A stretch of 64,000 nucleotides of DNA from Aphrocallistes beatrix (taxonomy: Eukaryota > Porifera > Hexactinellida > Sceptrulophora > Aphrocallistidae): NCBI GenBank assembly GCA_963281255.1, contig OY725493.1:5053857-5117856 (forward strand), given 5' to 3'. Of this stretch, positions 1,911-55,000 are shown piece after piece. The stretch's first letter is position 1; each line of letters opens with the position of its first letter. The notes beneath the pieces were generated by a model. That model worked only from the letters and a program-made list of their open reading frames with translations, did not search any database and was not told the DNA's origin. The position numbers were made by a program, and so were the translations under genes.

Positions 1911-2328
1911 CTACTGCATGTATTAATGATGAGATAGTTAAATACCGTTAGAAGTTTATACGTATTGATAATCCAATGGTAAATGTGAATTATATGGTTT
2001 TTCTGAAGGTTTAACTTAACCAACTATGGAATAAGATTTAAGATCTGACGTAATGGTTTAGTTTGTGACATGGTGTGAGGCCATATATCAATCTAGTTCA
2101 AGGAAGTTCTACTTAAATCATGTTACCAGTGAATAACCTGGAATTACTTGCACATTTTAGTTAAAGTATTAAATAAGAGTAATAAGAATATGTCTCAAGT
2201 ACCAAGTATCGATTCTATAGCATGGTTTATATATCAGTGCGATCTGAGGTTGTATAAATACCGAAGAGATTTGTGTCAGTAATTCATTTAGTTCAAGTCT
2301 CTTTCATTTAATTAGTACAGCCTGTCAA
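1911..2328. other. Intergenic EXOC4-MTMR2, no gene seen
   Basis: AT-rich spacer of 418 bp. It must hold the EXOC4 3' UTR and the MTMR2 5' region. A TACAG ending at 2320, eight bases before the MTMR2 ATG and preceded by a T-rich stretch, looks like a splice acceptor. Confidence 0.6.
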
Positions 2329-4831
2329 ATGTCACAAGCAGGACTTTTACAACTGACAAGCTTCAGGAGCACTCGGCCGGGGGAGAAGAAGAAGCTATCA
2401 AGCAAGCAGCGCTCAGTCAGCTTCGAAGACGTATCTTATTACCCCAGTACAGTCCCAGATAAAAAGACTAAGCGTAGTGGTAGCCTTTCTCACTTCAAAA
2501 TTTCAGGCGATGCCATTTTAAACACTTCGTCGCGTCATATTCTGTCCTGTACAAGCGATGAGTTTGAGACGAACTCAGATCCGGGAAAAGACGAAGAAAT
2601 TCAGGTTCGTACGATTAGAAATTTCCTAACTTTACAAGATGGCGGTTGTAATATTATGTTGAATCCATAGCATCCCTTCCTGGCCAAGATTTCAGGAGAT
2701 CGCGCCCTCGCTTCAAGCTCAGATGAAAGCGACAACACGTTATCTCCCATGGAGAGGCACGCCAGAGGTAGTAGCGGGAACGGTTACCTAGAGCTGATGG
2801 ATAACATCCCGATGAAGGAAGGAGAGAAGCTCTACTTCAAAACGGAGGAAGCGTCTGTGGTGTACATCAGCCCGTTCGGTAATCCTATCACGGGGTTCCT
2901 CTACATCACTGACTACAAGGTCTACTTCAGAGGCGGTGAGGATGAGCAGTCAACCAAGATTCAGGTGAGTGTCTGTAAGCCAGGAACTCGGAATAGAGAG
3001 AACATTGTTAATGGATTGAGGTGTTTCTTAGATTCCGCTGGGATGTGTGACGCATGTGGAGAAGGTAGGCGGCAAGAGATCGAGAGGAGAGTACGCATAC
3101 GGGCTAGTCATTATCTGCAAAGATTTCAGGAGTGTGCAGCTAGCTCTTAAGATTACCGCAGAGTATAGTCGAAACGATATCGTCAACAGTATTTGTAGAT
3201 TTGCATTCATTTCCAGCTGCCCAAACGGACAATTCTTCGCGTTTAGGTACAAACCCACCTATCCAGGTGCGTACCGTAATGGGTGGAAACAAGCGGAGAT
3301 CTATAAGGACTACCAACGACTGAATATACCCAACGGAAAGTGGAGATTTACTGAGGTAAGATTGAATTTCCGAAATTTCAATCGTTTATTTGTGTTCATT
3401 TGATTAATCGATTCCTGTGCTTTGTAGATTAATAAGAATTACAATCTGTGCGAGACCTACTCAAAGACTCTCGTGGTGCCTGCTCATGTGAGCGATGAAG
3501 AGCTGAGGCAGGTAGCTACCTTCAGGAGCAAAAACCGCATCCCCGTCCTGTCCTGGTGTAAATCTAATGGCGCCTGTATTTGCAGATCCAGCCAGCCTCT
3601 GGTAAGCTCAGCCTGTGATTATTATGGCAGCCTCAACTGCTAAATTTATCTGACTGGTGCTATGTGTAGCCGGGACGGTTGAATCGAAGAAGCGCAGACG
3701 ATGAGCAGTACCTACAGAGCATAATGAGGACAAACCTCCATAAGCACATGCTGTACGTGTTTGACGCTAGGCCTAAAGTGAATGCACAGGCGAACTCCGT
3801 GATGGGCGGAGGCTACGAGCAAGAAAACCACTACCAAAACATGAATTTCCGTTTCCTGGATATTCCAAACATCCACGTGATGCGTGAGAGCCAGCGTAAG
3901 CTGTTCGAACTCTGTTTCAACGGGATGGACAACCCGAACTGGTTCACGAAACTGGAGGACACGCGCTGGCTAGAGTACATCCGTCTCATACTCGACTCTG
4001 CCAACAAGATTGTGTACACTGTGGACAGGTAGGCTCATGCTCCAGATGCTCTTGTAAGCCTACACGCGATGTTATAATATTGTGCTTATCTGTTAGACTG
4101 GACGGTACCGTGCTGATACATTGTTCTGATGGATGGGACAGAACAGCACAGCTCACCTCTCTAGCCCAGCTCATGTTAGACCCATACTACCGGACTATTG
4201 AGGGTTTCGAGATGCTCATTCAGAAGGAGTGGCTAAGCTTTGGACACAAGTTTAGTGACAGGATAGGACATGGGAAGAAGAACCATTTGGATGAGCAGAG
4301 ATCCCCTGTCTTCCTTCAGTTCATAGATTGTGTTTGGCAGGTAGCTATTGATCAATTCTCCTTACCTACTCAGCTTAGAGTATAGTAGTTACGTATTGTG
4401 TCTAGGTCATCATGCAATTCCCGTTCGACTTTGAATTCAATGAGAAATTCCTACTCACTATCCTCCAACACCTTTACAGCTGTTTGTACGGGACTTTTCT
4501 TTTTAACTGTGAGAGAGAGCGCACCAATGTCTATGCTATCGATGTCGTTACAGAGTCGCTATGGACATACGTTAACTGCCAGAAAGACATCTACACCAAC
4601 GTCCTATACCAGCCACAGCTCTCTCAACGGGTTCTCTACCCTGTGGCCAGCATACGGAAGCTGGAGCTGTGGACTAATTATTTCATGCAATGGAATCCGA
4701 GGATGAAGCCTCAAGAAGCTGAAGTGGAGCGGTGTAAAGAGCTGGAGGAGATTATCAAAGTGTTAAAGAAGAAGTGCGCTCAGTTAGAAGATGAACTTCG
4801 AAAAAGGAAAACTGCAGGCGATTTATGCTAA
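2329..4831 (+). CDS. MTMR2: Myotubularin-related protein 2-type phosphoinositide 3-phosphatase
   Basis: Removes the 3-phosphate from PI3P and PI(3,5)P2 on endosomes. Proposed exons are 2329-2604, 2689-2964, 3032-3355, 3428-3601, 3670-4028, 4097-4340 and 4406-4831, giving about 692 residues. The order is a disordered N-terminus, a PH-GRAM domain (about 110-230), the myotubularin phosphatase domain and a short C-terminal coiled coil. The P-loop HCSDGWDRT has Cys near residue 479 and the conserved Arg, so an active enzyme is expected. [21 protein letters not shown] and RMKPQE are MTMR1/2 family blocks. The first junction is ambiguous: donor 2605 with acceptor 2688, or donor 2609 with acceptor 2695; both keep frame. 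The C-terminus lacks the PDZ-binding tail of vertebrate MTMR2. MTMR1 versus MTMR2 cannot be separated by eye. Confidence 0.9.
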
Positions 4832-5898
4832 AAGTACTGATGTCTTGAGGAATGTATCTATTTTATTTATTTGTATTTTATTATGGAATCATACATTTTG
4901 ATGGTTTATCATTTCATTACTTGGTGAATTAATTAAAGAGTTTTGATTTTAGTGCATGTGAGATCACATCCTTAGCTGGAGTCATACTGATTCTTCGTTT
5001 TATACTCGTATTGCTTCTTAAGCGAAAATATTGAATCAACTTATTCGTCTCGTTCTAATCTAATCTTATTCAGACATTTTAAGTCGAACTTGCGACTTTT
5101 ATCAAGAGCAGACATCTCTTGCTTGCATTATGTAACACCAAAAAAGGTTGATTTGAAGTGATTCACAAAACTTCAAAACTGAATTTATTAGTTTAATTAC
5201 TTCTTCGTATATATCAGTTAATAATAGAATTTTAAGTATCTTGAAGTAAAGACTTCGATATTCAGTGGGCGAAATTACTTCTATTTATGCATGAAATGAA
5301 GAACATTACATTCGTAATCCATGAGGAATATTTTACTTTATTTGTACATGAATGAGGGGTGCAATGGACATCCAAGGCTTTAGTTTGAGTGCGCTATTCT
5401 ATGGTTGTGGAACTCTGTCAACTATTCAACTCTCTCTTAGTGAGTACCAACAATAACTGCATGGTAGTTCTACAAATAAAACAAAGCAAACATTGATAAA
5501 ATTAGTCCAAGTTATTTAACAACGTATGTTGGATTTTTGTCCGATTTTTAAGCATAAGTTTCGCATAATTTTTTGGCTAGATATTTTTTTATTTGGAATT
5601 ATTTAAGTGTTGCACAACCTGGGGTCCGTAAACAGTTGCGTTCCACGATATAACTAAGTTACACACCTATATAAGGATGTAAAATACTATTTACATACGT
5701 AACGGTATCAAAAACAACAAGACTTTCAGGTTCGGAACCAGAGGATCAGTATTCTTAGTAATATTATTTGTAAGTTCATCATAATTTAAAACATTCCATG
5801 AATTAAAAGGATATCATTGATATTGATAATACGTTAGGTTCTGGTTGGTGTATGAGTATTTAATTAATTAATTGCGGTCAGACTAGGTTTAATTAAAT
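4832..5898. other. Intergenic MTMR2-WDR46, no gene seen
   Basis: AT-rich spacer of about 1.07 kb, the longest gene-free stretch in the window outside introns. ATTAAA at 4932-4937 may be the MTMR2 polyadenylation signal. I see no convincing ORF, tRNA or repeat. Promoter elements for WDR46 presumably lie at the right end. Confidence 0.5.
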
Positions 5899-8800
5899 AT
5901 GTCTGAGGAAAAGAAAAAGAATAATAAATTAAGGAAGAAGATGAAACCAAAAGGAAGAGGTTACAATTTTGGCAAATTGCAAGGCAAGCGTTATTTTAAT
6001 GCAAAAGATAATCCAACCAAAAAGAGAGTAAAAATTGAAACTAAATCAAAGAAAGAATTCAGAAAAGATAAAAATATCGATCAGGACATAGAGCGGTACC
6101 AGTCCCATCTCCCTGAGACAGCGGGTTATGTAGATTTGCACATAAACACAAGCGAAGAAGAGGGGCGGAAACACAGAACTAAAGTTCTATCGCTCACTCA
6201 GGAAGATATCTTGAAGCAGTCAGACCTTGTGAGCGCTAGCAAACGCTTTGAGCTAAAACTCCCCAAACTCGGACCTTACCATCTCAACTACTCAAGATCT
6301 GGACGCTACCTCCTGATAGGCGGTAACAAGGGACATGTGGCCTCGATTGATTGGATGTCTAAAAAACTGACGTGTGAATTCCAACTGAAGGAAACTGTGA
6401 GAGCTCTCCACTTCTTGCACAATGAAAACATGTTTGCAGTTGCTCAGAAGAAGTGAGTTAAGTTTTATTTATTTATTTTTTCATACACTAATCATAATCT
6501 ATTTACCTAAGTAATAAAACCACACGAAGACCGTTATAATGGTCTTCGTTGTAGGTGGTCTCTCCCGTGTGGAAGATGTAGATCTATAATTGGTCCGATT
6601 GAAATGATTCCTTTGGGGTTATTATTCTTCTGATACTTTAAATATATTTTCTTTGCGTGATCCATGTTTACAGTCTCCTCAACGCCTGGTATCTGGAAGA
6701 TATCTCTCGTATAGCCTGATAGGTTCTTATAGTCTGAAATTCTCCGAAGATTACAGAGATACAGGATGTTGTAGATGGGATCAAACCGTAGTAAGCTTGG
6801 CCAAAGCCGTAGATCAGCTTCTGTCAGTCTGTCACCACATAAGTAACGTTGATTCTCTAAAATATCTTCTACCTTGTCCAGTGCATCGAACACGCGCATT
6901 ACATTGCGTTCGTAGGATTTTTGGTTTCTCGAATTCCCCGTAAGGTATACTCCCATGGTGATATCGTTGTGAACCCATTCATTCACCTGATCGATATCCT
7001 TTTGCAGTGATTCAGGGTAAAAATCCCGATCTGGATATTCTGCGAGCTTGTTAAACTTATCATTGAAAATGCGCATTATCTCGGCGCTTTCGTTGTTGAT
7101 GATTCTATTCAAGTTTCTATCGAACAAGGCTGGGACTGTGGCTCTTCCCTTGAAGGAACCGCTGCTCTTCTTATACACTTCCATCAGAGTTGTTTTCCTG
7201 TTAACAAAATCTGGAGAACCTTCGCCTGGCTGATCAGAGAAAATGTATTCGTTTCTTTCGTTAACCCACAGATCTGAAGAAGGAATAGCCTTAGTCAGTC
7301 CTTTCAGAGCTCTGACGAGCAGAGCGCGATGAGCGAATGGACACGCAAATGATGAGTAGAGGTGATAGCGGTTGGGGGTGATAAGAAAATGCTTCACTCC
7401 GTCACTATCCACAGTTTCATTGAAACCCGATTGAGATTTCGGGAAAGGTAAACTGGCAGTGAGTTGTACATTACGTATTTGTACGCGTAGAAGGGATTTC
7501 AGGACTTTTCTAGGGTGCATTTGTAAGGAAGTGTCACGTTTTCTTAAATTTTTCACTGAAAAATCCTACAAGTTCTAATAATTAAAAGCATGCCAATGGT
7601 TTTAAAATAGGTAAATGTGGATACTCAGAGAAAGTTCACGTTATGAAGCCCTTTGCTAATCTGTTGTTTAGTCAGGTAATTATTTCCAAAAGATCCAAAA
7701 TTAGAAATAGTGCTTTCAGATAGTAATTTCACTTAGTATGTTTTAATAATTTTGTCCATTGGCAGAGATAATGTTTTTGAAGTTATCAGCATGGGTTGTA
7801 ATTACTTCATCTGATTGGAATATGATTAGAAACTCGTGCTCATTATGTTATGATGTGACATTACTTTGTAACCTTTCTGATCGCTAAATTAAGGCTTCGA
7901 TAGTTTAAGTCGAATATTAGCTTAAAAAGTTCAATTATTTTTAGTTATTGTCAGAATTTGGTAGATCATAATTTTTACTGTTGAATGCCTAGCATTTATA
8001 TGACTTCGCACTTTTATGGCTTCAGTGCCATAGAAAGCTGGGAGAACATCCGCGATATCGGGGACACTGTGTCCCCAGTGGGCATTCTACGGTTAAAGTT
8101 AACATAATGCGTAATAAATGCATTCAATTGCTCAATAACTAGAATCCCAACTAATTCTGAACAATTCGTTAGAGAGATTTAAGAGATTTAATTATAAATC
8201 AAATCAAAGTCCTAACCTACAAATTATTGCGAGAGTGCATGGGAATTGACCTTTACACCGACTGGCATAACTATGCCTCACTCTCTTATGATACTATTTC
8301 GGATGGAATCGCTTATTCTCCTTCGCCATGTCGAGTAGCAACGGAGCTGGTTCGAATTGCACCCCATACGTATCTCTGAAGGCGAGCATTTTGCTTAGAA
8401 ACTTGTTCGCGCCCAATGTATCGATAAATCTGAACGGGCCTCCATGGAAGGGAGGGAACCCGAGTCCGAAAATGGCTCCCAGATCCCCATCAGTGGGGGA
8501 CTTAAGGATTCCTTCTTGGAGAGTGAAAATCGCTTCGTTAATGAATCTACTCGCCACTCTCCACTGCACCTCCTCCTTCTCAATGCTCCCCTTCGTCTGC
8601 TTGCTGAACTTCTTTAGGATGGACTCTGCTTCTTCGTTAATCTTGCGATCCTTCCCCTTTTCAGAGTACACGTACACTCCCTTTCCAGACTTCCTCCCCA
8701 GATGACCTGCATTCACGAGACCCTCCAACAGTCCAATGTCTGATCCGCCTATCCGAGCTCCGAACCTCTTCAGCATGTCTTTGGACACGTGGTATGCCAC

Positions 8801-11800
8801 GTCAATTCCCACCTCGTCAGCCAGGGTCGCCATTCCCACTGGCCATCCGAATGCCTTGGTGTAGTTGTCTAGTTCCTGCGGTTTGACTCCTTCCTGGAAT
8901 AGACTGAGACACTCGTCTAGCATAGGCGCTAAAATTCGCGTTGTGTAGAACCCAGGCCCGTCTCCTACCACAATGACCGTCTTGCCTTGCCTCAGGCCTA
9001 CGTCCACTGCGGTAGCCGCTGCCTCTTTCGAAGTTTTTTCAGTCGTGATGATCTCTAGAAGTGGCATCTTATCCACTGGGCTGAAGTAATGCATACCGAT
9101 CACGTTCTCGGGTCGACTGCTAGCCGCTGCTATCTCCGTGATAGGGAGAGCTGAGGTGTTGCTAGCGAATATGCAATTCGCGGAAGTTACTGCTTCACAT
9201 TCCTTCAGAACTCGATGCTTCAGATTAATATCTTCGAATACAGCTTCGATTATGATGTCCAAACCTTTGAACTGTGCGTAATCTGTCTGCAGGCTGAGGT
9301 TAGTCATTATTTGGTCTCTCTCAAAGGTTGTGATAGATCGCTTTTTCGCACGTAAATTCATCCCTCTGTAAACCTGTTGATAGCCGCGAGAAATGCCCTG
9401 TTCGTTGGTGTCCTTCAGTATAACCTTCATCCCTTTGTCAATGCTAACCTGAGCAATGCCAGCTCCCATCAGTCCCGCACCCAAAACAGCGATATTTTTC
9501 GCAGGCTTTTGCGGATTTCCGAATCGATTTTTCTTACTTTCTGTTTGTGCGAAGAAAATAGATTTGAGGGATTTCGAGTGTGTAGTCATTCCGAGCTCAG
9601 CGAACCCATCCGCTTCCGCCTCGTACCCCTCTACTCCCCCTTTCTCCAGGCCCGCGCGCGTGACGTCTAAGATTTTCAGAGGAGCGGGGTAGAGTCCCTG
9701 AGTCTGCTTCATCACCATCTTCTTAGCCTGATCCAGCGCGTAATTGCGTCCGTACTTGGTGTGAGTGATCGCATTGAACATAATCCCTTTCATGCTCGTC
9801 CATGGTTGAGTTCTCGCAGGGATTTTCTGTTTCCCAGTGACTAAATTCTTTGCAGTATTGATGGCTACCTTTTCGAGGTAATCGATATTATTCTGCTTGG
9901 CATCAGTCACTCCTGCTCCTATAGGCTGTACCAGCTGGTCCACGAGGCCAATACGTTTTGCCTTATTAGCTTTAACCTAAGAAAATAAGATATAGCATCA
10001 AATACTTATAAGATACGTATAATAACGTATGACGTCATCACACACCTGTTTCCCTGTCAGCATCATCGGCAGTGATTCTTGTAGTCCGATTAGTCGAGGC
10101 AGCCTTTGAGTCCCGCCTGCTCCAGGCAGCAGCCCGAGCAGCACTTCGGGTAGGCCTAATGTGGTTTTCCTTTCGTCCATTGCAATTCTGTAGTGACAGC
10201 CCAATGCTACCTCGAGTCCCCCTCCTAAACAGGAGCCGCTGATAGCTGCTACGACCGGCTTGGGACTTCTCTCCATTGATTGAATCATTGCCTGTCCGCC
10301 CTGAGAAATCTCCTTCATCTCCTCTTTATCGCTCGCTTGATCTAGCCATGCTATGTCAGCGCCGGCTATGAACGTGCCAGGCTTTGAGCTGATAAGAACG
10401 GCAGAAGTTACGTCATCTCGTCTAAGGCCCTCCTCCATAACAGCAGTAAGCTCTTCACTGAATTCAGGTCCAAGCGTGTTGACCTTGCTCCCTTCTTCAT
10501 CCAAGCGCACGACTAGCACGCCTTCTACAACCTCGCTCTTCACATGCCTCGGCTTCTGAGAGGATAGGAGAGAGGGGGTGAGACTGAGGGAGCGGTGTGG
10601 TGCGTAGCTAGGAGCTCGTATCGCGGTGAATAGTCTGTGTCCAGATCCGGAGACTGCTCGCCTCAGACACTGCAATGACATTCTAAGAAACCCAACTAGG
10701 ATCAGGACAAGTTATTCCAATAAGAATAAATACGTCTCCGAAATTCTGAACAAAACCCCGTGTTAAGTTCAGCGAATTAATTCACCCTTTACTTCGACGC
10801 ATTAAGTGGGTATATGTGTTCCTTAGGTACATGTACATATACGACAAACAGGGTGTGGAACTCCACTGCCTCAAGACACACCACCAAGTTTGCGCTCTCG
10901 ACTTCCTCCCCTACCACTTCCTGTTAGTATCTGTAAACAAAAAAGGCTACCTACAGTACCTCGACACCTCTACAGGGGATCCAGTTGCCAACTTCCAGAC
11001 TCGGCTAGGTCGCACTAGCACTCTCACACATAATCCTAACAACGGAGTTGTACACTTGGGCCATTCCAATGGTACTGTCACTCTTTGGAGCCCTAAAACA
11101 CCTGAACCGCTCGTTAAAATGCTATGTCATCATGGTCCTGTGAAGTCGATTGTTATTGACAACAGTGGGCAGTACATGATATCAGGAGGCGTGGATTCTA
11201 AAGTACGAATTTGGGATGTAAGGACGTACAAGAGCCTAGGGGAGATTAGGAATCGTGCACCTGCTGATGTTATGAAGTTAAGTCAGAGGAATATATTAGC
11301 CATTGCCTCTGGTCGTAGGGTAAGTTTATGATTCGTAAAATAATAATTTGAGTAATTATATTATTATTGACTTCCTAGATAACTACATACCATGAACCGT
11401 TCTCTCAAAAATCTTGCATTCCTTATCTCAAACACTACTGTGACGATGCCATAACTTCTCTAGACTTCTGTCCGTATGAAGATGTGTTAGGGATTGGACA
11501 CGGTTTAGGTTTTTCCAGCATTCTCATCCCTGGGTCAGGAGAGCCAAACATTGATTCATTAGAAGCCAATCCTTACCAAACTAAGTCTCAGAGGAGGGAA
11601 CACGAAGTGAAGATGCTGTTAGAGAAGTTACAGCCAGAGTTGATTACACTGAGATCCGACAGCATAAAGAAAGTTGCGGACATGACAGGGGAGGAGCTAG
11701 AGAAGATGAAGGAGCAACAGATAGAGGCGGGGAAAGAAGCGAAGAGAGAAGAGTTCAGGAAAAGAGGCAAGTCAGGCGCCATTAGACAGTTGAATACGAT

Positions 11801-11924: not shown

Positions 11925-12058
11925 ATTTGTTAATCTCAACAATATTAGCATTTTTTTGAAATCAACAAAATAATCTACGTAAACATGATCAATTGATCAT
12001 AGTTTCAAATTGTTTAATATGAATAACCTTTTTAGCCAAATATCACTTAGACTCACAA

Positions 12059-13390
12059 ATGGCCAGTAAGGTGTCAGGGGAGTATCTCCTGAGAATACGC
12101 AATGCGGTGCAGGTGGTCCAGGTATGTAGGGAGAAGCAGCTCATGCTACGAGGTCCTGAGATGAAGAATCTGGTAGTGATGAATGCCACTGAGGACAATG
12201 GCATATCAATTGTAGTCGATAACGCTGGGTTGATTGCTGACATCTGTACAGATCAAGAAGCAGATTCCAAATTTTCAGGTGTCACCTTTCGCAGGGAATT
12301 AGATGCAACCGGGAAATGTATCATTCCAGGGTTAGTGGACGCACACACTCACCCAGTCTGGGCTGGGGACAGGGTGCATGAGTTCGCGATGAAGCTAGCT
12401 GGAGCTTCCTATTTGGACGTACATAAGCAAGGAGGAGGGATACACTACACAGTCGAGAAAACTCGAGAAGCGACGAAAGAAGAACTGTCTTCCCTCCTCC
12501 TCTCTCGACTCAACAAAATGCTACGTCATGGGACAACTCTCCTCGAGGCAAAGAGTGGATATGGATTAGATGCTGAGAACGAAATAAAGATGTTGGAAGT
12601 GATAGAAAACGCGAAAACAGCTCAAGCAATAGAAATATCGTCCACCTTCTGTGGCGCTCATGCTATCCCCAAAGGGAAGTCATTATTAGAAGCAAGCAAT
12701 GACGTCATCAGCAACCAACTGCCAGCCTTACGAGATCAGATCTCTAAAGGGGAGCTGAGAGTGGATAGCATCGATGTGTTCTGTGAGAAAGGAGTTTTCG
12801 ATATCGAAGAAACGAGGAGGATTCTGCAGGCTGGAGCTCAAATGGGCCTGGAGATTAATTTTCATGGCGATGAACTGAACCCGTTAAACGCCGCGGAATT
12901 GGCAGCAGAACTAAATTCGCGTGCAATTAGTCACTTAGAAGAGATTTCTCCACAGGGCATTAAAGCCATCTCTAAGTCCTCTACGGTTGCTATCCTGCTA
13001 CCAACAACTGCGTACATTCTCCGTCTAAAGCGGCCGCCGGCTAGACACATGCTGGAAGAGGGTGTGGCCATCGCTCTCGGGAGTGACTTCAATCCTAACG
13101 CGTACTGTACGTCAATGCCTGTGGTAATGCACTTAGCTTGCGTCCTACTTAACATGAGTCTAGAAGAAGCTCTGGTCGCTAGTACGATCAACGCAGCAGC
13201 TGCGCTTAAGAGGAGTAGCACCCATGGCAGTCTAGAGGTAGGGAAACGAGCGGACCTGTTGATACTGAACGCGCCCAGGTGGGAACACCTTGTATACCAG
13301 TTCGGAGAGGCTGATTCTGTGATAGGAAGTGTTGTGATTGGCGGACGAATCGTATTCGAGTCCCAAAACGTTAACCAACACCAATTCTAA
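12059..13390 (+). CDS. AMDHD1: Imidazolonepropionase (histidine catabolism)
   Basis: Hydrolyses 4-imidazolone-5-propionate to formiminoglutamate, the third step of histidine degradation in the cytosol. The single exon gives 443 residues, the usual length. It belongs to the amidohydrolase superfamily: the metal-binding HTH is at residues 96-98 (DAHTHPVWAG). Further blocks are TTLLEAKSGYGLD, FCGAHAIPKG, INFHGDELNP and LGSDFNPNA, which carry the other metal ligands and substrate contacts. CACTTAG ends eight bases before the ATG. AATAAA occurs at 13432-13437. Its 3' end converges with TLNRD1. Confidence 0.95.
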   Translation: MASKVSGEYLLRIRNAVQVVQVCREKQLMLRGPEMKNLVVMNATEDNGISIVVDNAGLIADICTDQEADSKFSGVTFRRELDATGKCIIPGLVDAHTHPVWAGDRVHEFAMKLAGASYLDVHKQGGGIHYTVEKTREATKEELSSLLLSRLNKMLRHGTTLLEAKSGYGLDAENEIKMLEVIENAKTAQAIEISSTFCGAHAIPKGKSLLEASNDVISNQLPALRDQISKGELRVDSIDVFCEKGVFDIEETRRILQAGAQMGLEINFHGDELNPLNAAELAAELNSRAISHLEEISPQGIKAISKSSTVAILLPTTAYILRLKRPPARHMLEEGVAIALGSDFNPNAYCTSMPVVMHLACVLLNMSLEEALVASTINAAAALKRSSTHGSLEVGKRADLLILNAPRWEHLVYQFGEADSVIGSVVIGGRIVFESQNVNQHQF

Positions 13391-13431
13391 CTAATTTAGT
13401 GTATTTTACCCATTGATTGGTATAAGATAAT

Positions 13432-13437
13432 AATAAA
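13432..13437 (+). terminator. Polyadenylation signal AATAAA for AMDHD1
   Basis: AATAAA 42 bases after the AMDHD1 stop, within an A-rich run. It is the only good hexamer before the convergent TLNRD1 stop. Confidence 0.6.
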
Positions 13438-13491
13438 ATAAAAACACACAATTCGGTGAAAATAATGGATGGGGTTGCTATGCTGAGTGGT

Positions 13492-14469
13492 TTATCTTTT
13501 ATGTGATATCTTTCCTGCCGGGGCGTGGTCTCGCAATAACGTCGTTAGCATAAGGGAGGCGTCAGTTACCGCGATTTGGCATTTTAATAGCTGCTGCCAT
13601 CTGTGCTCTTCGCTCTCTCCTGACTGTAGTTCCGCCGCAGTAGCTAAGAATTTCGCACAGCCGGATACGACTGCCATTGCGATTCCTAATATTTTGAGTT
13701 GAACTTTGTGTCCCTCAGTCCCTAGCTCCGCTGGCCGTCCTAGCAACACGTCACCTCCTTCTAACAAGTAATCGATACAGGTGTCGAGAGCCGCGAGTAG
13801 TGGCTTGCTAAACAGAAGAGAGATGTGACAGTCTTTCTCTGTTGGTAGCGATTTGAGTGAGGTCAGGAATGATGCAGAACATCCTTGCAAGCATTGTGCG
13901 AGCAATGCTAGCTGCTCTCTCTTAGCCGGAGGTACCTTGTCGTGTTCAGCGGCGCGGGAACAAGCTTTTACGAAAACTGTCACATTTTCCGCCACGCTAC
14001 GACTTAAGGTAACTGCTAACTTCCCTTGGTCGTCTCTCACAGCCGCTCCACTCCCACCCAACTGACGGACACACCTCTCCACCAGGAATCTGGCCTTGCT
14101 GACACGGTACAAGTCTATCACTCCTGGCACGGCAGGTTTGCTGTCCGGCATGTCGACTGCTACATGGTACGCAGCATGTGCTGATTGCTCGGTCAGGGAG
14201 ACTGTTGAGCTGGTGAGCATATCGACTATCCTACCCTCATCCTGTTTATTGTATGAGTTATTACTCAGCGCAGATCTGAGAAAGTCGAGCAGAGCCTGAA
14301 GGCTAATTAGCAAACTCTTACTATTCGCTATCGCGCTTTCAAGGCACTTTGAAAAGGAACTGTGTGCAGATGCTACAGGTCCGAGGACTTGTGGTCTCTT
14401 CCCTCCTCCCAGCAGTAGGAGGTCTGCTGTCATTTGTATCTCGAGAGCGCTCTCCTCGTACGGACTCAT
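13492..14469 (-). CDS. TLNRD1: Talin rod domain-containing protein 1
   Basis: Actin-bundling protein made of two talin-rod-like helical bundles (R7/R8-like), acting at the cytoskeleton. The single exon gives 325 residues. The all-helical sequence carries a block near residues 90-140 (VSLTEQSAHAAYHVAV, then VPGVIDLYRVSKAR) that matches the TLNRD1 signature. A later block (KILGIAMAVVSGCAKFLATAAEL) matches its second bundle. The disordered N-terminus of mammalian TLNRD1 is missing. GTAG precedes the ATG by five bases. Its ATG is 113 bp from the divergent NAA38 ATG, so the two probably share a bidirectional promoter region. Confidence 0.85.
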   Translation of the reverse strand: MSPYEESALEIQMTADLLLLGGGKRPQVLGPVASAHSSFSKCLESAIANSKSLLISLQALLDFLRSALSNNSYNKQDEGRIVDMLTSSTVSLTEQSAHAAYHVAVDMPDSKPAVPGVIDLYRVSKARFLVERCVRQLGGSGAAVRDDQGKLAVTLSRSVAENVTVFVKACSRAAEHDKVPPAKREQLALLAQCLQGCSASFLTSLKSLPTEKDCHISLLFSKPLLAALDTCIDYLLEGGDVLLGRPAELGTEGHKVQLKILGIAMAVVSGCAKFLATAAELQSGESEEHRWQQLLKCQIAVTDASLMLTTLLRDHAPAGKISHKR

Positions 14470-14582
14470 GCTCTCTACAATCCCTGACTCAATTAACCGA
14501 TTAATTTTATTGTAAATATTAATTAGAACCTTGAAACAATTGATTATTTATGAAAATTAAGGTTATTAAATGAATTAGTCCA
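14470..14582. promoter_or_regulatory. Probable shared divergent promoter region, TLNRD1/NAA38
   Basis: 113 bp separate the two divergent start codons, and both genes have a TAG 4-5 bases before their ATG. Transcription of both must begin in or near this AT-rich segment. No TATA box or known factor site is claimed. Confidence 0.45.
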
Positions 14583-14939
14583 ATGAGCGAGACTACAGAG
14601 ACAATTGATAAGAAGGAAGAGAGTGCGAGTAGAGAAGCAGAAACGCTTGTAGAGGCGGAGCCAACTTCCAAACCGGATGCAGTTCTGAAGGGACGAGACT
14701 ATCTGAAGTCACTCCTTGACAAGAAGATGATGATACTGACAAGAGACGGACGGGTTCTTATAGGAAGGTTCCATTGTACAGATAAGCAGCTTAATATCAT
14801 TCTGGAGGGGTGCAATGAATACCAGAGCGTGGAAGAGATGAAGAAAACCGAGAACAAAAGCAAAAAGAAAGCGCGTTATCACAATCTCGTTATTATCGCA
14901 GAGAAATTTATAGCTAACATATTTGTACATAAGGGTTAG
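14583..14939 (+). CDS. NAA38: NatC auxiliary subunit, LSM domain (NAA38/LSMD1)
   Basis: Small Sm-like subunit of the NatC N-terminal acetyltransferase, which acetylates ribosome-bound nascent chains. It has 118 residues: a Glu-rich, disordered first third, then an LSM fold from about residue 38. Sm1 shows DGRVLIGRFHCTDKQLNIIL; Sm2 shows NLVIIAEKFIANIFV. The pairing of GRFHCTD with NIIL favours NAA38 over spliceosomal LSm proteins, but at this length the assignment is less firm. ATTAG lies four bases before the ATG. NUP88 starts 117 bp after the stop on the same strand, an operon-like spacing. Confidence 0.75.
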   Translation: MSETTETIDKKEESASREAETLVEAEPTSKPDAVLKGRDYLKSLLDKKMMILTRDGRVLIGRFHCTDKQLNIILEGCNEYQSVEEMKKTENKSKKKARYHNLVIIAEKFIANIFVHKG

Positions 14940-15005
14940 ATCAGGTCTTAGTTTAGTTATTCAACTAAATTTTAAATCTTAGAATATTTTAGATTTCGCA
15001 TTTCA

Positions 15006-15011
15006 AATAAA
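15006..15011 (+). terminator. AATAAA between NAA38 and NUP88
   Basis: AATAAA 66 bases after the NAA38 stop and only 45 bases before the NUP88 ATG. A CTAG acceptor-like site follows at 15047-15050. Signal followed closely by acceptor is the arrangement seen between genes of trans-spliced operons. Confidence 0.55.
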
Positions 15012-15056
15012 AATACAATTCTTTGTTGTGTTGACACTCTAGAATTCTAGATCTTA

Positions 15057-17237
15057 ATGGCTGAATCCCTCGTCACGCCGACTTTCAGTGTGAGTACACC
15101 TCTAGGCGAAGTGTTCCATCGGTCGGTTAGCTCAAGTTTATCAGAATCAGAATTCCTTTCATGGACAGAAAAGCTATCGAATCATGACATCTTCCTCTCC
15201 CTCAAACACTCCATTCCTCCTACTCACGCTACAAGCCTCAGCTCTTCTACCCTATTCAGTCTGTCTGCTTCCTGCAAAGGAGTTCTCCTGCTCTGGTTCC
15301 CAGCTAAGCGCGAAATTAACGCGATTTCTCTCGTCACTCTAGACATCCTATCACCTCCGAACTGGCCCGTACTTCGACTGACACCAGAGCCCAGAGCTGC
15401 TATTCACCAGCTGCTCCTCTCTCCGGATGGTTATCACTGCCTGCTCGTTTCGGACGATTCCACTTATCTCATTGCACTACCCAAGTACCTCTATGATTCC
15501 CGTACATATTCCCATCACTTGGCGAAACCCCTCTCTTCTACTATCGATTGCAACCAAATCAAAGTGCTTTCGAGGAAGCAGAAGTTTGTAGAGATCTGTG
15601 AGGTTCGATTTTCTCCAGAAGAGCTCACAGCACAGCTAATCTTCGTACTCTGCTCTGACGGATTTCTGCATATTTTCTCACCTCTCGCCATTAATGAGCC
15701 AGTTTGCAGCTACAACCTCAATCCTGATCCTAATGCAACCATCTCCGCCTCGATATCACTCTCAAAAGCAATGGGAGATGAGCCTGTATCGTTCGACTTC
15801 ACAGTTTCTAACACTCCAATTACACCAGGAGGGCAATGGCTGTCTCTCTACCTGTTGATGGGCAATGGAGATGTAAGACTGGTCTCGATTGATTTGAGTC
15901 AGATAGACATGGGAAGGGGAGAGGGCATTATATTCGGAGATGTCCTACCCATGCACCCATCACCTCCTGACTTGTACGATGATGAGGCCTGCAAACTTGT
16001 CTGTCTACGCTCAGCTGTGCCTAGCTTCATAATCGCCAGTGCCCCTGGGAAACTGTACCACTGCGTGCACCTCAGCACTCCGCCCTCACCCCAGCCCACA
16101 CCTCCCCCAACTGGCACAGCTAGTCATGAACCCGACGAGATGATCTTCCTGCTGGAGGTAGTGGATCTAACTTCAGAAGAAGACAATGATCAACTATTTT
16201 CACACCCGCCTCGCATCATAACCGATCCCAATTCCCCTTACAGGTACATTCTATGCTGTGAGAACGGTGTTTACAACATTTCACTACCTTCTCTCGAGCT
16301 AATGAACGCATACTGCAAACAGGATGAGCTGGGTTATGATATCTCTCTCCTGTCTCGAGACGACTCCCTCACTGCAACAGAGGTAGATCTCATCTTGCAG
16401 ACCAAATCCAATCAGATATATGGGGTCGTGTTAGTCTCCCTGCCGAGCCTGGGACCCCCTGTGCTACTCTTCACTTTCAAAGACGGAAATTGCCTCTCAA
16501 AGGACCTCCCACCTATTAACAGGATATCAGCCGTTCCCTTGGTCGTTCAGTCAGATGAAAAAAGCTCTCTTAACTCTTCGCTTAGTATTGGCCGAAAAGA
16601 TTTTGCAGAGTCAATAAAGCAAACTTTGAAATCTGCAAATACAATGCCGATATTGAAGAATCAACCAGATGAGGAGGTTTCACAGGAAGAGCTGTATAGC
16701 CTTCTGATCAATAGCACGGACAACTTGAGGCAACAAGTCAATCTCTCCCAGTACAAAGCACTGGAGGAGCTTTTGCACAAGGCTCAGTCTTTACTAGACA
16801 GCAAACAACATCTCGAAGAGGCTATCATACGCAGTCAGAACGAGGTACAAATGCTGAGAGAAAACACGAAAGAAATTGACACCAAAATTGGACTCGCAAA
16901 TGTGAAATACGCTTCCAATCTTGAACGAGTGCACAAGGTTCTACAGAAAATTTTACAAATGAATCCAACTCTCTCCAAAGAAGAAAAGAAATATCAGGAG
17001 ACGCTTAAAGAACTGGAGAACAGGATCCCCCTCTTGAACGAGAGGATCCAGCATACCCGAGCTAAGCTCGAAAACCCTAGCCTAATCATTCCAGGGCGAG
17101 GGAGATCTAGCTCCACCGGGATGATGAGGAGTCAACACGAGCAGATACAAGCTAAGATCAGAGCGTTCGCGCAATCGTACAAGTCACTGAGAACTAAACT
17201 CGACCAGCTAAACATCGATGTCGCTACCATGTCCTAA
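15057..17237 (+). CDS. NUP88: Nucleoporin Nup88
   Basis: Cytoplasmic-face nuclear pore subunit that works with Nup214 and Nup98 in mRNA and protein export. The single exon gives 726 residues, close to the human 741. The first 480 or so residues have the low-identity beta-propeller pattern of Nup88 (for example GVLLLWFPAKREINAISL and RFSPEELTAQLIFVLCSDGFLHIFS). Residues from about 530 to the end form coiled coils (ALEELLHKAQSLLDSKQHLEEA and later heptads) that would join the Nup214/Nup62 trimer. An acidic/proline loop interrupts the propeller near 355-375. CTAG is six bases before the ATG. Confidence 0.85.
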   Translation: MAESLVTPTFSVSTPLGEVFHRSVSSSLSESEFLSWTEKLSNHDIFLSLKHSIPPTHATSLSSSTLFSLSASCKGVLLLWFPAKREINAISLVTLDILSPPNWPVLRLTPEPRAAIHQLLLSPDGYHCLLVSDDSTYLIALPKYLYDSRTYSHHLAKPLSSTIDCNQIKVLSRKQKFVEICEVRFSPEELTAQLIFVLCSDGFLHIFSPLAINEPVCSYNLNPDPNATISASISLSKAMGDEPVSFDFTVSNTPITPGGQWLSLYLLMGNGDVRLVSIDLSQIDMGRGEGIIFGDVLPMHPSPPDLYDDEACKLVCLRSAVPSFIIASAPGKLYHCVHLSTPPSPQPTPPPTGTASHEPDEMIFLLEVVDLTSEEDNDQLFSHPPRIITDPNSPYRYILCCENGVYNISLPSLELMNAYCKQDELGYDISLLSRDDSLTATEVDLILQTKSNQIYGVVLVSLPSLGPPVLLFTFKDGNCLSKDLPPINRISAVPLVVQSDEKSSLNSSLSIGRKDFAESIKQTLKSANTMPILKNQPDEEVSQEELYSLLINSTDNLRQQVNLSQYKALEELLHKAQSLLDSKQHLEEAIIRSQNEVQMLRENTKEIDTKIGLANVKYASNLERVHKVLQKILQMNPTLSKEEKKYQETLKELENRIPLLNERIQHTRAKLENPSLIIPGRGRSSSTGMMRSQHEQIQAKIRAFAQSYKSLRTKLDQLNIDVATMS

Positions 17238-21475: not shown

Positions 21476-21630
21476 TCCTATATACCCTAATTGTTCCAGA
21501 ATGTCTTGTCAATTCACATGATTGGGTTAACTTATTAGAAGATCAAACTACTAGGGTCATCAACATTTCAAACAATTTGCCAAACATAACATTTGTATAT
21601 AATACAGCATAAGGAGTTGTATAACTAATT

Positions 21631-22143: not shown

Positions 22144-22328
22144 GCTAGCTTATGGGAAATGAACGATTCCTAGCTCAGTCTTAACTCATGAAATCAGATA
22201 AATTGGTACCGGAATCCAAACAATAAATCTTAGTGCGTTGATTAGATAATCGGTTTGTATTAGACAATAGGTAATAGTACATACGTGTATAAGATAAATT
22301 AGAGTCAAGTGATCGGATGACCGCATAC

Positions 22329-24036: not shown

Positions 24037-24197
24037 GCTATGGCTATGCTAGCTGTTCCAATATGGTACACATGTAATTATGGCAAACTAGGCAAGATGG
24101 ATGTTTACAATCGATTCTCCATAATTTAACTCTGTACAAACCTCAATACTATAATACTAATAAAATAATCAAACGATCTAAACCACTTCGAGTGGGA

Positions 24198-25224: not shown

Positions 25225-25370
25225 TCTAAGTTTGAGCTAAAACCTCGTAAAATGGGAACTCGTATACTCTCCAATATCTCGACGAGACTAAGGCTAAAAT
25301 CAATTACGGAGTTTGAAATAATTCCATTCTAATCAAGCACCATAACATTCCAATAAAACACAGGTATTAA

Positions 25371-34655: not shown

Positions 34656-34982
34656 GCTAGCTAATGTTCAAAACTCCAACTGTGATCATCATAAGAAATA
34701 ACACCACATGGATAATGATTGGATATTTGTATTTGCAGTATTTACTCACATTTATAAACTCTATAATTATGCGTCAGCAGTTGTAATCGAAACAAGATAA
34801 CATATTATTATGTGAAGATATAATTAGCGATGACTGGGCAAGAGACTTGACAAAATAAATAATAAATAAAGCATTTAAAAGAGTTAAGAATACAAAATAT
34901 AAATATATTGCTGGACATAGGTCAATAGAATGGAAGTGAAAATAAATTAAATTCACAAAACATGTCCCTCCCTTTTTCTCAG
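34656..34982. other. Intergenic BRPF1-DRAM-like, no gene seen
   Basis: 327 bp, AT-rich, holding the 3' UTR of the membrane protein gene and the BRPF1 5' region. Nothing recognised. Confidence 0.5.
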
Positions 34983-36062
34983 TTACAAATTCGTTTCTCT
35001 GAACAAGTCTAATACTGAATTTGTATTCGAATGCGAGTCGATGTTATGGTTGCCATAGAGCACACCAGAAGATTCAGAGACGGTATCTCTTCTCGGAGCA
35101 TTAACCTGTTTGCACTCGTTAATACTATCCACAGGTGGAACAGTAGGGACGGTATCTTGAGATGCTCTATCGCTGTCTACCACATACGAGTGCGGAAGTT
35201 CAATGGCAAGGCTGATACGTTTTCTCCTGAGAGGAGGAATTATGGTTAGGCACAACAGGAATAAAGTTAAAGTAGCGATATACTGAGAACCTATCGCAAC
35301 GATGTGCGAGTAATATCCAAAAGATTCCTGCTCCCAGCAGAGATTTCCCACATTGGTCCGAGTTTCCGGTTGTGTATGGTAGAACACAGTCATCAATATC
35401 ATGGAAATGACAGTGGAATGCAGGAAGAGAGTGAATATCAGTAGAAGGATACACTGAGTGCAAAGAAAATATACGCGAGGTAGAGCAGAAAAGACAGAAC
35501 GAGTACGAACGTTTAGGATGAAGACAATCCAGGCGAACAAGAAGAATCCCGAATAAAACATAACAACATTCACCATGTGAATCATGTTAACTGCAACCTT
35601 GATGTTACTTGTGATGTTAGAGGTGTTCAAGATTGGGTAGAGGGATTGGATCACAGGCATGCCTTCAAAAGGAAATGAAACGGTGCCAATCAATCCTAGC
35701 ACTGAAAGGATTCCACACAAAAGACTCAATTTATTCATGAAAAAAAACTTGGGAATTTCATCTTCTGTGTTAACCCACTGGAGTCGTAGCTTGATATCAA
35801 CATATTGTATAAATATGGCAATGCCTACTAGGCAGGCGGAAATTGTGCAAAAGTAAGTGATAAACATCCTACTGAGATACATACTGGCTATGTTGCTTAG
35901 GAATACGATAGGACAGCTAAACGTTGAGGTCGAGGATGGGAGAGTATATGCAGAGCTGAAAGCACCACCGAGAGCGATTATGGAAAATATAAAAGCAAGG
36001 AGGGGCGGAAGACCCAGATAGGAAATTGAAACTTGACTGTCGTCTCGCATTGCGTATGGCAT
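34983..36062 (-). CDS. Six-helix membrane protein, DRAM/TMEM150/FRAG1-like
   Basis: The single exon gives 359 residues with about six strongly hydrophobic segments (near residues 17-40, 65-88, 107-130, 155-185, 197-225 and 250-278), then a 75-residue hydrophilic tail. The pattern matches the Frag1/DRAM/Sfk1 superfamily: a short N-terminus with an ISYLGLPP block before helix 1, a helix-loop-NKLSLLCGILSVLGLIG segment, and YYSHIVAIGSQYIATLTLFLL before the last helix. Family members sit in lysosomal or plasma membranes (DRAM in autophagy, TMEM150 in phosphoinositide kinase localisation). Assignment within the family is not possible by eye. A GAG rather than TAG/CAG lies near the ATG. Confidence 0.6.
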   Translation of the reverse strand: MPYAMRDDSQVSISYLGLPPLLAFIFSIIALGGAFSSAYTLPSSTSTFSCPIVFLSNIASMYLSRMFITYFCTISACLVGIAIFIQYVDIKLRLQWVNTEDEIPKFFFMNKLSLLCGILSVLGLIGTVSFPFEGMPVIQSLYPILNTSNITSNIKVAVNMIHMVNVVMFYSGFFLFAWIVFILNVRTRSVFSALPRVYFLCTQCILLLIFTLFLHSTVISMILMTVFYHTQPETRTNVGNLCWEQESFGYYSHIVAIGSQYIATLTLFLLCLTIIPPLRRKRISLAIELPHSYVVDSDRASQDTVPTVPPVDSINECKQVNAPRRDTVSESSGVLYGNHNIDSHSNTNSVLDLFRETNL

Positions 36063-36361
36063 CGTGCTCGGTTAAGAGTTTAACTTAGACGAGCTTATTT
36101 ATATGTACCGTGCGGGATAAGCTAATAGAAAGCAAACTACTATATCAGCACTCAGCCTCTATACTCAATGACTATATACTACATTGCTAATACGTATCTG
36201 AGTGAATAATTACATCAAGTTTGTCAAATTAATTTACATCTTAAAAACATTTCAATATTATCAATAAATAAATATGTAGAATCTTGTACTATGCAATACC
36301 GAAACTCAAAATTTAAAGTTAAAGTATTCTAAATAACAACGCATGATACCTTAAACTTGTG

Positions 36362-38985: not shown

Positions 38986-39530
38986 ATCTATTTCCTTATT
39001 GTAATAAAAAAGTATTATACAGTTAATACAATTAAAACTTAAGAATTTAGAGTGAAATAGAGGTACGCATTACGTATCTGCAAGCGATGGAAGCCAGTAA
39101 CTGTCCCCACACAACTACGATCAAGGATTCAAGGTCAACCACACAGAAATATTCTGACTAGACATGCCAATAGAAATGCACGATCATAGATTCTATACAG
39201 TACATTGCTCTACAGTAATGTGCATACGTTTTTAATAAAGCAGAGGAATTCTGATGTACCAGGAAGCTCAGTTGGCTGTGATACACTTGTACTAGTTTAT
39301 ATCATTAACTTGTATACCTCGTATTATAGTATTGAATTCGATTATAACATCTTGATAATAATAAAATTGCATGAATAAGTGCTGCTACATACAATACAAA
39401 ATCAACTCGAACCATTGGCTTTCGAAACAGAAATGACTTCAATTTGGACTAAAAAGTAAAGCGAGAAGTGAAATGTTCAGACTCATATTCATTGCAATAC
39501 TGAATTAGACTCAATTTGATAAAAGACAAT
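38986..39530. other. Intergenic WDR91-SENP, no gene seen
   Basis: 545 bp, AT-rich, the longest gap in the minus-strand run. No ORF, tRNA or repeat recognised. It may separate two transcription units. Confidence 0.5.
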
Positions 39531-42047: not shown

Positions 42048-42185
42048 GGGCTAATAGAACAAATATACAAAGTAAAAATTGCCTTTTTAAAAGAATAAAT
42101 GAGTAGGGAAAGAGTAGGTTGTATCGTGTGCTACAAGGTAAACGTGACGAGTGGTGGTGATAATAAAAATGTGAATACGGAATAA

Positions 42186-44004: not shown

Positions 44005-44242
44005 AGCTGAATAAAATAGAAAATGATTACGCAGTTAATCTTCTCAAAAAAGGTAACAACAATAATGACTCAGAATGGATCAAATTTCCAGTAGGACCAC
44101 ACGCACGCATACGCATATTCTAAATACCGAGCAATTCAATTCAAATGATAAAAATTGATCCAATCGGAATTGGAATGATACGAATAATTCATTAAATATG
44201 TATATAAGTGATATAAACCAGGCAGGGTAATAATGGACTCTC

Positions 44243-45121: not shown

Positions 45122-45195
45122 TCTAATGCGACTGAAAATAATTTTAATATTACAATGTATTTAATGACAATTAAGAACATCCAATTTGTCAATAT

Positions 45196-45201
45196 TTTAT
45201 T
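45196..45201 (-). terminator. AATAAA between TAF1 and PBLD
   Basis: AATAAA 17 bases after the TAF1 stop and about 75 bases before the PBLD ATG, which itself follows an ATTAG. TAF1 would therefore have a very short 3' UTR. Confidence 0.6.
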
Positions 45202-45218
45202 CATAAAAAAACAGTCAA

Positions 45219-50120: not shown

Positions 50121-50239
50121 GCTAAGCGATTCAAATACAGTTTAAATGGCAATTTGAATGAAAGAAGATTTTGAGGAATATTTAACACGTTATACAATAC
50201 AAAATCTAATTTATCCTAGCAACAAGGGAATTCATAAAT

Positions 50240-51622: not shown

Positions 51623-52013
51623 CTATTTCCGAAGAATGGAGACAAGGAAAAAATGGAATATTGTCCACTTGGAGGGCTGATAGATAGAATATGTATATCA
51701 TTGGAAAATCATCATAACCCCCTTTCAAATCTATCCATCACATTCGACCCCAATAATTAAAATATAAGGAGAGATGGAAAACTATATTTTCAAACTAATA
51801 TTCATCAAAGTACTAAGGAACTATTAGATTACATGACACTAACTAATAAATTCAGCCTAGTTGATGGGCATCGACAATTAACAGCCAGCTATGCACTTAA
51901 AGTACGTAATAATTACAATGATTGACAGTCTGAGTAAGTCAAGTCTCAGTGAGACTAGCTAGTCATGATAAAGTTTGAAATAGTTAGAGTAGGACTAAGG
52001 TGAAAATAGACTG
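51623..52013. other. Intergenic RIOK2-HUWE1, no gene seen
   Basis: 391 bp, AT-rich, containing the HUWE1 3' UTR and RIOK2 5' region. No ORF or repeat recognised. Confidence 0.5.
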
Positions 52014-55000
52014 TTAGGCCAGACCGAATCCCTCCGGGCACTCTTGTGTGGCGTAGAGGAGCGCAGTTCTCAGATCTTCGTAGCTGCTGTAGGCAGGAAG
52101 ATCGAGTTGATTGAAGCTATAGAATGATCTTGTCAAAATCCGTTAGTTAATCACTAATGTTAATCTCACTTACCAAGTGTGAGCTGATGGCAGTCGCATG
52201 TCTGATCTCTCATCTTTGTGGATCTGGAACTTCTGAATTCCATTCATCCCTTCCAGGAAAGCAAACCCTCTCAGTGGGACTTTCGAGGTGCCAGTTACGA
52301 ACTGGAGGAACTTGGCTCGGTCTGCTTGATCGAAGGAGCGCAGAGCTCTCCAAAACCATTGTATCTGGAAAGAAGGAAGCATAAATCGTGAGAATGCAGT
52401 TCTTCGCAACTCTAATACTTACACTACCTGCATAGAGTTCTCGTTGTACTTGTAGTACTCTGTGTTAGCTTTCAAATCGTCGATATCAACGTTGGGTAGG
52501 CCTGATATGAGCAGCTCCAGCTCCTGCTCATTGAAGATGGAAATCAACTTCTTGGGAATAATTTCGTAAAATCCTCCCAAAAAGCTTTTGATTTGTTGGT
52601 GAATAGCGCCAGTCATTTTCATCTGGCACACGAGACGTACGTAGTCCTTCTTGTTTTCTTCAGTCACTGTAAGATTGCGTCCATTCTTGACCAGATCCTT
52701 GACCTCCATTACGCCGAAGTCATCAATCTAGAAGAATATCCGAATTCATACGTTAGCTCATCTGAATTATTCTCTTACCCCCCATCTACTAACCCAGCAC
52801 ATCAATCAAACATAAAATAGGTCATTACATTACATACATATTATATAAACTACGTAAAATCCAATTAACAATCTAGCACTCCTAATTCAGATTCAGTCTA
52901 AAGCTACAGGTTGTACGGCACATTCTTAGGCGGGTCGAGTAGGTTGAGGAGGACGGGGGTGTTGTGTGTGCTCGTGAAATGCTTCATATACTGCATGGCC
53001 AGGTAGACGGCAAGAGCCGTCTGATCTTGGAGAGGTAGTTCCCTTCCGATTTCGCAGGGAGGGGCCAAGCTAGCGGTCATGGAATAATCCTGAATCAGGT
53101 CATACATCCGTTTTCTATCGATATTATATTCAGAATTAGTTCTCTCATGGTCAGTCAGGTGCAGCCAAAGCAGGACGGCCTTTTGACACTCGTGTATGCT
53201 GAAAAGGAACGGATATCTGTTCTTGAGAAGAGACATCAGTAAGTCATTCCCGCGGTTTGTAGCAGCTCTATTGTTAATATCTGTTGTAATAATATCATCT
53301 TTCGTGCGCCTTATAAGGGTGACGGGACCGTTGTATTGGGACAGGAACACCTGCGGCTGCAGGTTGAAGTGGTTGGTCAGGACTTCGGTGACAGGTGTCA
53401 GGAGGAGGCTCGGCATCTTGGCTGTGGCGAGGGGGACGATGTCGTCAAAGGATGCGTCTAAAATGAGTCCTTTTAGCATCGGAAATGCAGCAGTGGCATA
53501 GCTGGCTGAATAGCCTCCGATTGACCAGCCATACACGATGATGGACTCCAGAGGGTGATGGAGCTCCTCTACCGCGTATTGCACCGCAGCAATCACTGCC
53601 TCCTGGTCAAAGTGGGGGAAAGGCTTACCGGTGCTGTACTGGAAGCCTGGATGGTTCCAACCTAGGACGGAGTACCCCCTCCCCAGGAAATGGTGCGTGG
53701 ATGCACTCTCCATGAATCCAGCATTTCCCTCGCAGCAGATGACTAGAGTATCTGAATACGCAGTTTCATTCTGTCTCACATAGATCGTGTCTATCGAGTG
53801 TCCAGATTTGCACAAGAGCTTACCTCTCACTCCCCCCTTTGCCAACAGTTGATATCTCCCCTGTGCGCAGTCTATGCCTACGATTGAGTTCACAAACCAG
53901 AGAGAGCCGGGGTAAATGGCAGCTCTGCCGAGAGAATGGGCTAGAAGGTAGTGCCACGCGTCCAGAATGAATCCGTAGAGGAGCGCGTATCTCAGAACAG
54001 AGTAGCTAGGGATATTGGGGGGCGTGGGGGTCCTAGGTGTTAGTTTTGACTTTGATTGGATAAATGCGGGAGGAAGTGAACTAATGTCAAAATCAAACAT
54101 TCTCAGAGACTGATAATTTCTAGTGTTCTTCCCCTCTCGATCTTTTTTGAGAATTCTCATAAATTCCTGATAATCTGGGTTCATTGAACGTCCAATCCCC
54201 CTCACGAGGTAGAGAGGAGTCATGAGAGCGGCAGAGAGGGTCAGTATCTTAGCACCTGTCAGCAGGTTATGATTTGAGAGCAGATTTGTCGTATTCATGT
54301 ACAGCTTGTAGATAATGAGAGGTGATAGGTAGTAAGTCATCTTAATAGCAAAGTAGCTGGCATTCAAAATCATATTCGGGATGGATTCAAGCGCCTTAGG
54401 AGAGTAGGGAACCACTCCTCCCTGTTTGTATAGGAAGTACAAGTTGGGCGAGAAGATGTAGTCGAGAATCCCCATAGTACAGCTAATAGTTCAAATTTCA
54501 AAATAGTTTCAAAAAGGTATACTATAGAGTAGCAGGAGGCTAAGATAATAATTGTATAGTTTAAAATTATTTAAGTTCGCAATTGTTCTAGGAAACATTA
54601 GGCCGCAGTAAATGTAATGAAAAGGTAACGTACCTCTGTGCTGAAGGTCAGTTCACACCCGATCTCATTCAGATCGTGCTCCATGAGGTAGAGCATGCTC
54701 TTGTAGAAGCCGTAGTCCTCCGCTTCCAGGTCTGTGTACTGCACTGGCTTGCTGAGAATGTGCTTGTAGAAAGAGCGGCCAAAGTAGCAGTCGAGTAACT
54801 TATTGTCATAGATTGCCTTAGCAATTAGTCGTCCCACAAACTTGAAGTAGTCCAGGTGCTCTTTGTTCACGTAGGAACAGCTGTTCGGGACATACGTCAC
54901 CCTGTCGCCAGGCGTTGTGGTGAAGAGTGCATAGTCTGGATTGAATATTTCGCGAGAGATGATCAAGTACCATTCCCTCAACAACCCCCCTGCATCCTGC

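Follow-up and report, generated by a model that had tools for sequence, protein, structure and literature searches.

Genes of the window and their start codons

The window, by which we mean the whole 64-kb stretch of DNA analysed here, contains 24 genes whose start codons could be fixed. TAG or CAG triplets were scored when they ended 0–8 nt 5′ of the ATG. On the plus strand, a CAG at 2318–2320 lies 8 nt before the ATG of MTMR2 (2329). TAGs on the same strand are located at 12048–12050 (8 nt before the AMDHD1 ATG at 12059, with the WDR46 stop 134 nt upstream), at 14576–14578 (4 nt before the NAA38 ATG at 14583) and at 15048–15050 (6 nt before the NUP88 ATG at 15057, with the NAA38 stop 117 nt upstream). 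On the minus strand, TAGs were found 1 nt before the ATG of HADHA (10683–10685; ATG at 10681), 5 nt before that of TLNRD1 (14475–14477; ATG at 14469), 1 nt before that of BRPF1 (34657–34659, with a second TAG at 5 nt), 2 nt before that of WDR91 (38988–38990), immediately 5′ of that of RIOK2 (51623–51625) and 7 nt before that of ABHD16A (54483–54485). The divergent start codons of TLNRD1 and NAA38 (14469–14583) are 114 nt apart, with a TAG at both.

Eight further minus-strand genes carry their triplet a short distance behind another gene. These are PRDX5 (TAG at 21478–21480, 2 nt before the ATG; BLOC1S1 stop 155 nt upstream), BLOC1S1 (TAG at 22145–22147, 1 nt; GAS8 stop 185 nt upstream), GAS8 (TAG at 24038–24040, 1 nt, and a second TAG at 7 nt; a 299-aa gene 141 nt upstream), the 299-aa gene itself (TAG at 25226–25228, 1 nt; a POLR2C-like gene 146 nt upstream), SENP (TAG at 42051–42053, 3 nt; a coiled-coil gene 138 nt upstream), the coiled-coil gene (CAG at 44007–44009, 2 nt; PBLD 238 nt upstream), PBLD (TAG at 45123–45125, 1 nt; TAF1 stop 97 nt upstream) and TAF1 (TAG at 50122–50124, 1 nt; RIOK2 stop 119 nt upstream). 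The starts lacking a TAG or CAG at 0–8 nt are those of WDR46, the GST gene, Vasa, the POLR2C-like and RTF1-like genes and the 359-aa gene at 36062.

Fourteen window proteins were scanned against Pfam, and 12 of them gave matches fitting the gene name, including AMDHD1, NAA38 (an LSM domain), NUP88, PRDX5, BLOC1S1, SENP, PBLD, TAF1, RIOK2 and ABHD16A; TLNRD1 and the 359-aa gene gave none. In BLOC1S1, RIOK2, PRDX5, PBLD and ABHD16A the domain begins no more than 20 residues from the chosen start. The remaining gene names come from the initial annotation or were assigned by eye, and are presumptive.

Several genes appear to be nested. A larger gene that looks HUWE1-like apparently harbours ABHD16A (52904–54477) within one of its introns, and since both are oriented alike, an AG of its own would compete for the donor of the host gene just upstream. 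A tRNA-Ser (CGA) is located on the minus strand at 62766–62849, in a predicted intron of the same HUWE1-like gene. The WDR46 intron of about 4.4 kb (6453–10826, its donor after 6452 predicted by a simple gene finder and its acceptor near 10826 placed by eye) seems to contain two antisense genes, a GST-like gene and HADHA.

As a control, we took 300 other ATGs from non-coding stretches of the same window on both strands. TAG or CAG at 0–8 nt preceded 18 of the 24 starts and 75 of the 300 control ATGs (25%; Fisher p=1.3e-6), and chance was rejected as the source of the excess. TAG alone preceded 16 starts, against 16% of the control, and was the most enriched of all 64 triplets. A slight excess persisted at 9–17 nt (10/24 starts versus 21%, p=0.023), the bin that holds the triplets found 12 nt before WDR46 and Vasa; in the bins from 18 to 44 nt the 24 starts showed no TAG/CAG excess over the control ATGs. 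The initial annotation had listed 18 AG positions, all of which proved correct to the base when read from the window. Its count of 18 in 24, its placing of the WDR46 and Vasa triplets and its estimate that about a quarter of genes would carry such a triplet by chance were likewise borne out.

Gene spacing, flanks and wider samples

The analysis was extended over 30 kb on each side of the window (124 kb in all), within an assembly of 100.5 Mb in 28 contigs. From 23 start candidates listed in the flanks we kept 17, dropping four that were unsure (F, F2, M and Nn, among which M has an AG) and two that were alternative starts for genes already included. Some other ORFs stand outside the count: two in the left flank (329 and 405 aa), which score low for coding and have no AG, and those that were taken for internal exons. 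Gene starts were chosen by hand, and the hits and gaps used in the pooled tests were also compiled by hand. The flank genes presumably include, to judge by their appearance, NSF, RPA1, NOP9, MTCH2, COG6, BAP31, MON1 and TMEM106, and those of the left flank are taken to be housekeeping genes on the same basis.

The two flanks differed markedly, with AG at 0–8 nt in 2/9 starts on the left and 7/8 on the right. Pooled, they gave 9/17 (p=0.012 against 0.25), and window and flanks together gave 27/41, where about 10 would be expected by chance (binomial p=4e-8 against 0.25). Two adjacent BAP31-like paralogues, named by eye, start at about 4245 and 5120 on the minus strand of C7:5137857-5147856; each has a TAG before its ATG, one at 1 nt and the other at 8 nt.

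Farther afield the signal was weaker. In 190 kb sampled from 19 contigs, at a single place per contig, 11/28 ORFs had the AG; these ORFs were selected for their coding score and for a stop codon ahead of the first ATG, and the set includes internal exons and perhaps ORFs of mobile elements. Among five Rab/Ras starts elsewhere (ranks 1, 2, 5, 6 and 7 of 154 matches, two tandem copies being passed over), two had an AG at 0–8 nt and a third had one at 9 nt. The AG signal is real, yet these low counts, taken with the left flank, suggest that it is confined to a subset of genes. It appears to be patchy along the chromosome and does not mark nearly all genes.

The distribution of the signal follows gene spacing. 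Ten window genes begin 97–238 nt after the stop of a neighbour on the same strand, and all ten have the AG, compared with 8/14 of the others (p=0.022). With the flanks included, the AG precedes 13/14 genes lying less than 250 nt behind a same-strand neighbour and 14/27 of the others (p=0.0085), the 250-nt cut-off having been chosen post hoc with the gaps already seen. The sole exception among the 14 close genes, flank gene A, has its nearest TAG at 14 nt.

From Vasa to the HUWE1-like gene (17962–64000), 16 non-nested genes in a row are encoded by the minus strand, and the last of them extends beyond the window. Eight genes of this run lie 97–238 nt behind the preceding stop. A run of this length has p=0.0005 under a fair coin and p=0.12 under permutation of the observed strand totals, and the 45 genes of a strand list compiled by hand fall into 11 strand runs (p=0.045). 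We consider the gene cluster of the window operon-like, with short same-strand gaps and an AG at the downstream genes. Short distances between genes are by themselves no proof of co-transcription, because the divergent TLNRD1 and NAA38 starts are also only 114 nt apart, and because AATAAA or ATTAAA occurs in 2/10 close gaps versus 3/8 wider ones.

Splice-site context and competing readings

A first alternative to trans-splicing is that ordinary cis introns in 5′ UTRs end at the start AGs. The triplets themselves are those of cis acceptors, which are TAG in 32 and CAG in 6 of 38 curated introns, as against 16 TAG and 2 CAG at the AG-bearing window starts. The likeness to cis acceptors drawn by the initial annotation thus holds for the triplets and only in part for their surroundings. 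Context scores, computed with the NAG triplet excluded, averaged -3.63 at random non-coding TAG/CAG, -1.87 at the start AGs and +0.50 at cis acceptors, so that the start sites exceed random ones (p=0.0125) and fall below true cis acceptors (p=0.008). T content at positions -9 to -3 is 34% before the start AGs versus 46% before cis acceptors. The acceptor context therefore argues partly for and partly against splicing. In favour of acceptor function, the simple gene finder joined some neighbours through start AGs, for example NAA38 to NUP88 via 15050.

Upstream donors speak against cis introns. The best donor 45–200 nt upstream of the 24 starts had a median score of 4.88, versus 4.90 in shuffled sequence (p=0.59); the donors of the 38 curated introns score 8.3. 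Good donors do occur in this range before TAF1 (9.9; this donor falls within the preceding gene), BRPF1 (7.9), ABHD16A (7.9, perhaps belonging to the host gene) and BLOC1S1 (7.4). The pattern of an AG before the start with no matching donor upstream holds as a statistical excess and not site by site. In addition, the gaps of 97–238 nt at ten starts leave little room for a promoter, an exon and an intron. On balance, we regard cis 5′-UTR introns as an unlikely general source of the start AGs.

The triplets could instead form part of a Kozak-like start-codon context with no role in splicing. The sharpest peak falls at offset 1 (TAG-N-ATG or CAG-N-ATG), which accounts for 10/41 starts versus 5% of 295 controls and places an A at -3, as such a context would. 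However, offsets 2, 8 and 12 are raised too, and when the offset-1 starts are set aside, 17/31 of the remainder still have an AG at other offsets up to 8, versus 59/280 controls (p=1.2e-4). Moreover, an A at -1 is found in 10/14 AG-less starts versus 13/27 AG-bearing ones. A start-codon context of this kind is an improbable explanation for the excess.

Another reading is that transcription begins at the motif and yields almost leaderless mRNAs. The short distance between AG and ATG would suit it, as would the divergent TLNRD1 and NAA38 starts, whose separation of 114 nt suggests that promoters can be very small in this genome. The AG offset varies, however, and 5′ UTRs of 0–8 nt would be too short for scanning ribosomes. 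To our knowledge, almost leaderless mRNAs of this kind have no precedent in animals, and we judge this reading very improbable.

Finally, the excess is almost certainly no local accident of the window, as might be thought from the weaker random sample (11/28) and left flank (2/9), given that the right flank, which was outside the view of the initial annotation, has the AG at 7/8 starts and both flanks together reach 9/17 (p=0.012).

Proposed trans-splicing and gene organisation in a probable glass sponge

The class of the organism was judged from mitochondrial sequence. In cox1, tryptophan is encoded by TGA 14 times and by TGG 0 times, and the gene is rich in ATA codons. AGA stands at conserved sites where the cox1 of other animals has serine. 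A trnR(ucg) was found by ARAGORN, and a nad3-like ORF lies just before cox1. These features agree with the account in PMC2267718, according to which three hexactinellids read AGR as serine, almost never use TGG and are rich in ATA codons, and which describes trnR(ucg) and nad3 adjoining cox1 in Aphrocallistes vastus. The mitochondrial code is of the hexactinellid type, as read from cox1. On the grounds of this code and of codon use, a bilaterian or demosponge origin was rejected.

SL trans-splicing is already known from glass sponges. It is stated for hexactinellids in PMC7986045, and PMC10282587 describes it for A. vastus, with a leader of about 37 bp derived from long reads and predicted leaders on 4% of reads. 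The genome studied here, apparently of the same class, resembles that of A. vastus (PMC10282587) in being small and dense, with many single-exon and nested genes. In A. vastus only 4% of reads carry predicted leaders, which counts against widespread use, whereas here an AG precedes 27/41 starts in 124 kb, of which about a quarter would be expected by chance.

Based on these findings, we propose that the start AGs are trans-splice acceptors in a glass sponge, an explanation we consider likely. From the AG excess and its position, the chance-level upstream donors, the link to tandem spacing and the hexactinellid-type mitochondrial code, we infer a leader, its joining in trans and a role in separating neighbouring genes. 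The outron, a short stretch before the AG, would be removed, and an SL RNA would donate its leader exon instead. This exon would supply the cap and the 5′ UTR, which is why the AG could sit 0–8 nt from the ATG. The leader may serve a subset of genes, chiefly those close behind a same-strand neighbour. The initial annotation had also read the sites as targets of a spliced leader; the specificity of the excess, the chance-level donors and the published SL trans-splicing in the class favour that reading, and the acceptor context, weaker than in cis, the apparently patchy gene subset and the negative scans for an SL RNA gene count against it.

A search for an SL RNA gene produced nothing convincing in local scans of the examined loci, by 5S linkage or with the Rfam SL1 model. 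The U1 (three matches) and U2 (four matches) genes have a common CCAT(A/T) element about 54–56 nt before the RNA start, and the U2 genes have an additional TTATA about 30 nt before it. A local pattern combining the CCATA element, taken from these upstream regions, with a donor and an Sm site gave one weak match in the examined loci; a looser version gave two, one of which (L013) lies between copies of dispersed repeats. The 5S rRNA genes, of which there are at least four, are scattered single copies with little common flank and form no tandem array. No adjacent block was common to all four 5S matches, with 47 of 3434 candidates scored. Rfam SL1 gave a single sub-threshold match (E 0.15) in sequence resembling an AT-rich repeat. 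In Rfam scans, only a tRNA exceeded the cut-off in the window, and nothing did in 14 further loci.

SL trans-splicing is also described for the ctenophore Hormiphora californensis, a non-bilaterian that likewise has nested genes (PMC8527503). There, the leader was found on 56% of Iso-Seq reads, with first exons of 35–48 bp and 718 leader loci, whereas here local scans and Rfam SL1 found none.

Operons of Caenorhabditis elegans are characterised by short gene spacing. They are resolved by SL trans-splicing (PMC7986045), and the window resembles them in that genes follow one another closely on one strand and the downstream gene has an acceptor at its start. Whereas C. elegans has SL2-type leaders and polycistronic RNA, the operon-like layout is known here from DNA, and AATAAA or ATTAAA is present in only 2/10 close gaps. 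It is conceivable, at somewhat less than an even chance, that glass sponges have true operons, in which runs of housekeeping genes would be co-transcribed and then cut by SL trans-splicing at the AGs near their starts. PMC7986045 (2021) describes operons and polycistronic mRNAs as so far unreported in hexactinellids, and none of the titles listed in our literature search (sponges, Oopsacas), which covered few subscription journals and is weak evidence for the years after 2021, concerned glass-sponge operons.

The fresh part of our findings is the tie between the AG and closely packed same-strand genes. SL trans-splicing has a scattered distribution among animals, which bears on the question of a single ancestral or a repeated origin. 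With acceptors that can be read at the starts in a chromosome-scale genome of a probable glass sponge, candidate target genes can be listed from DNA alone, and the existence of operons outside the bilaterians becomes open to direct test.
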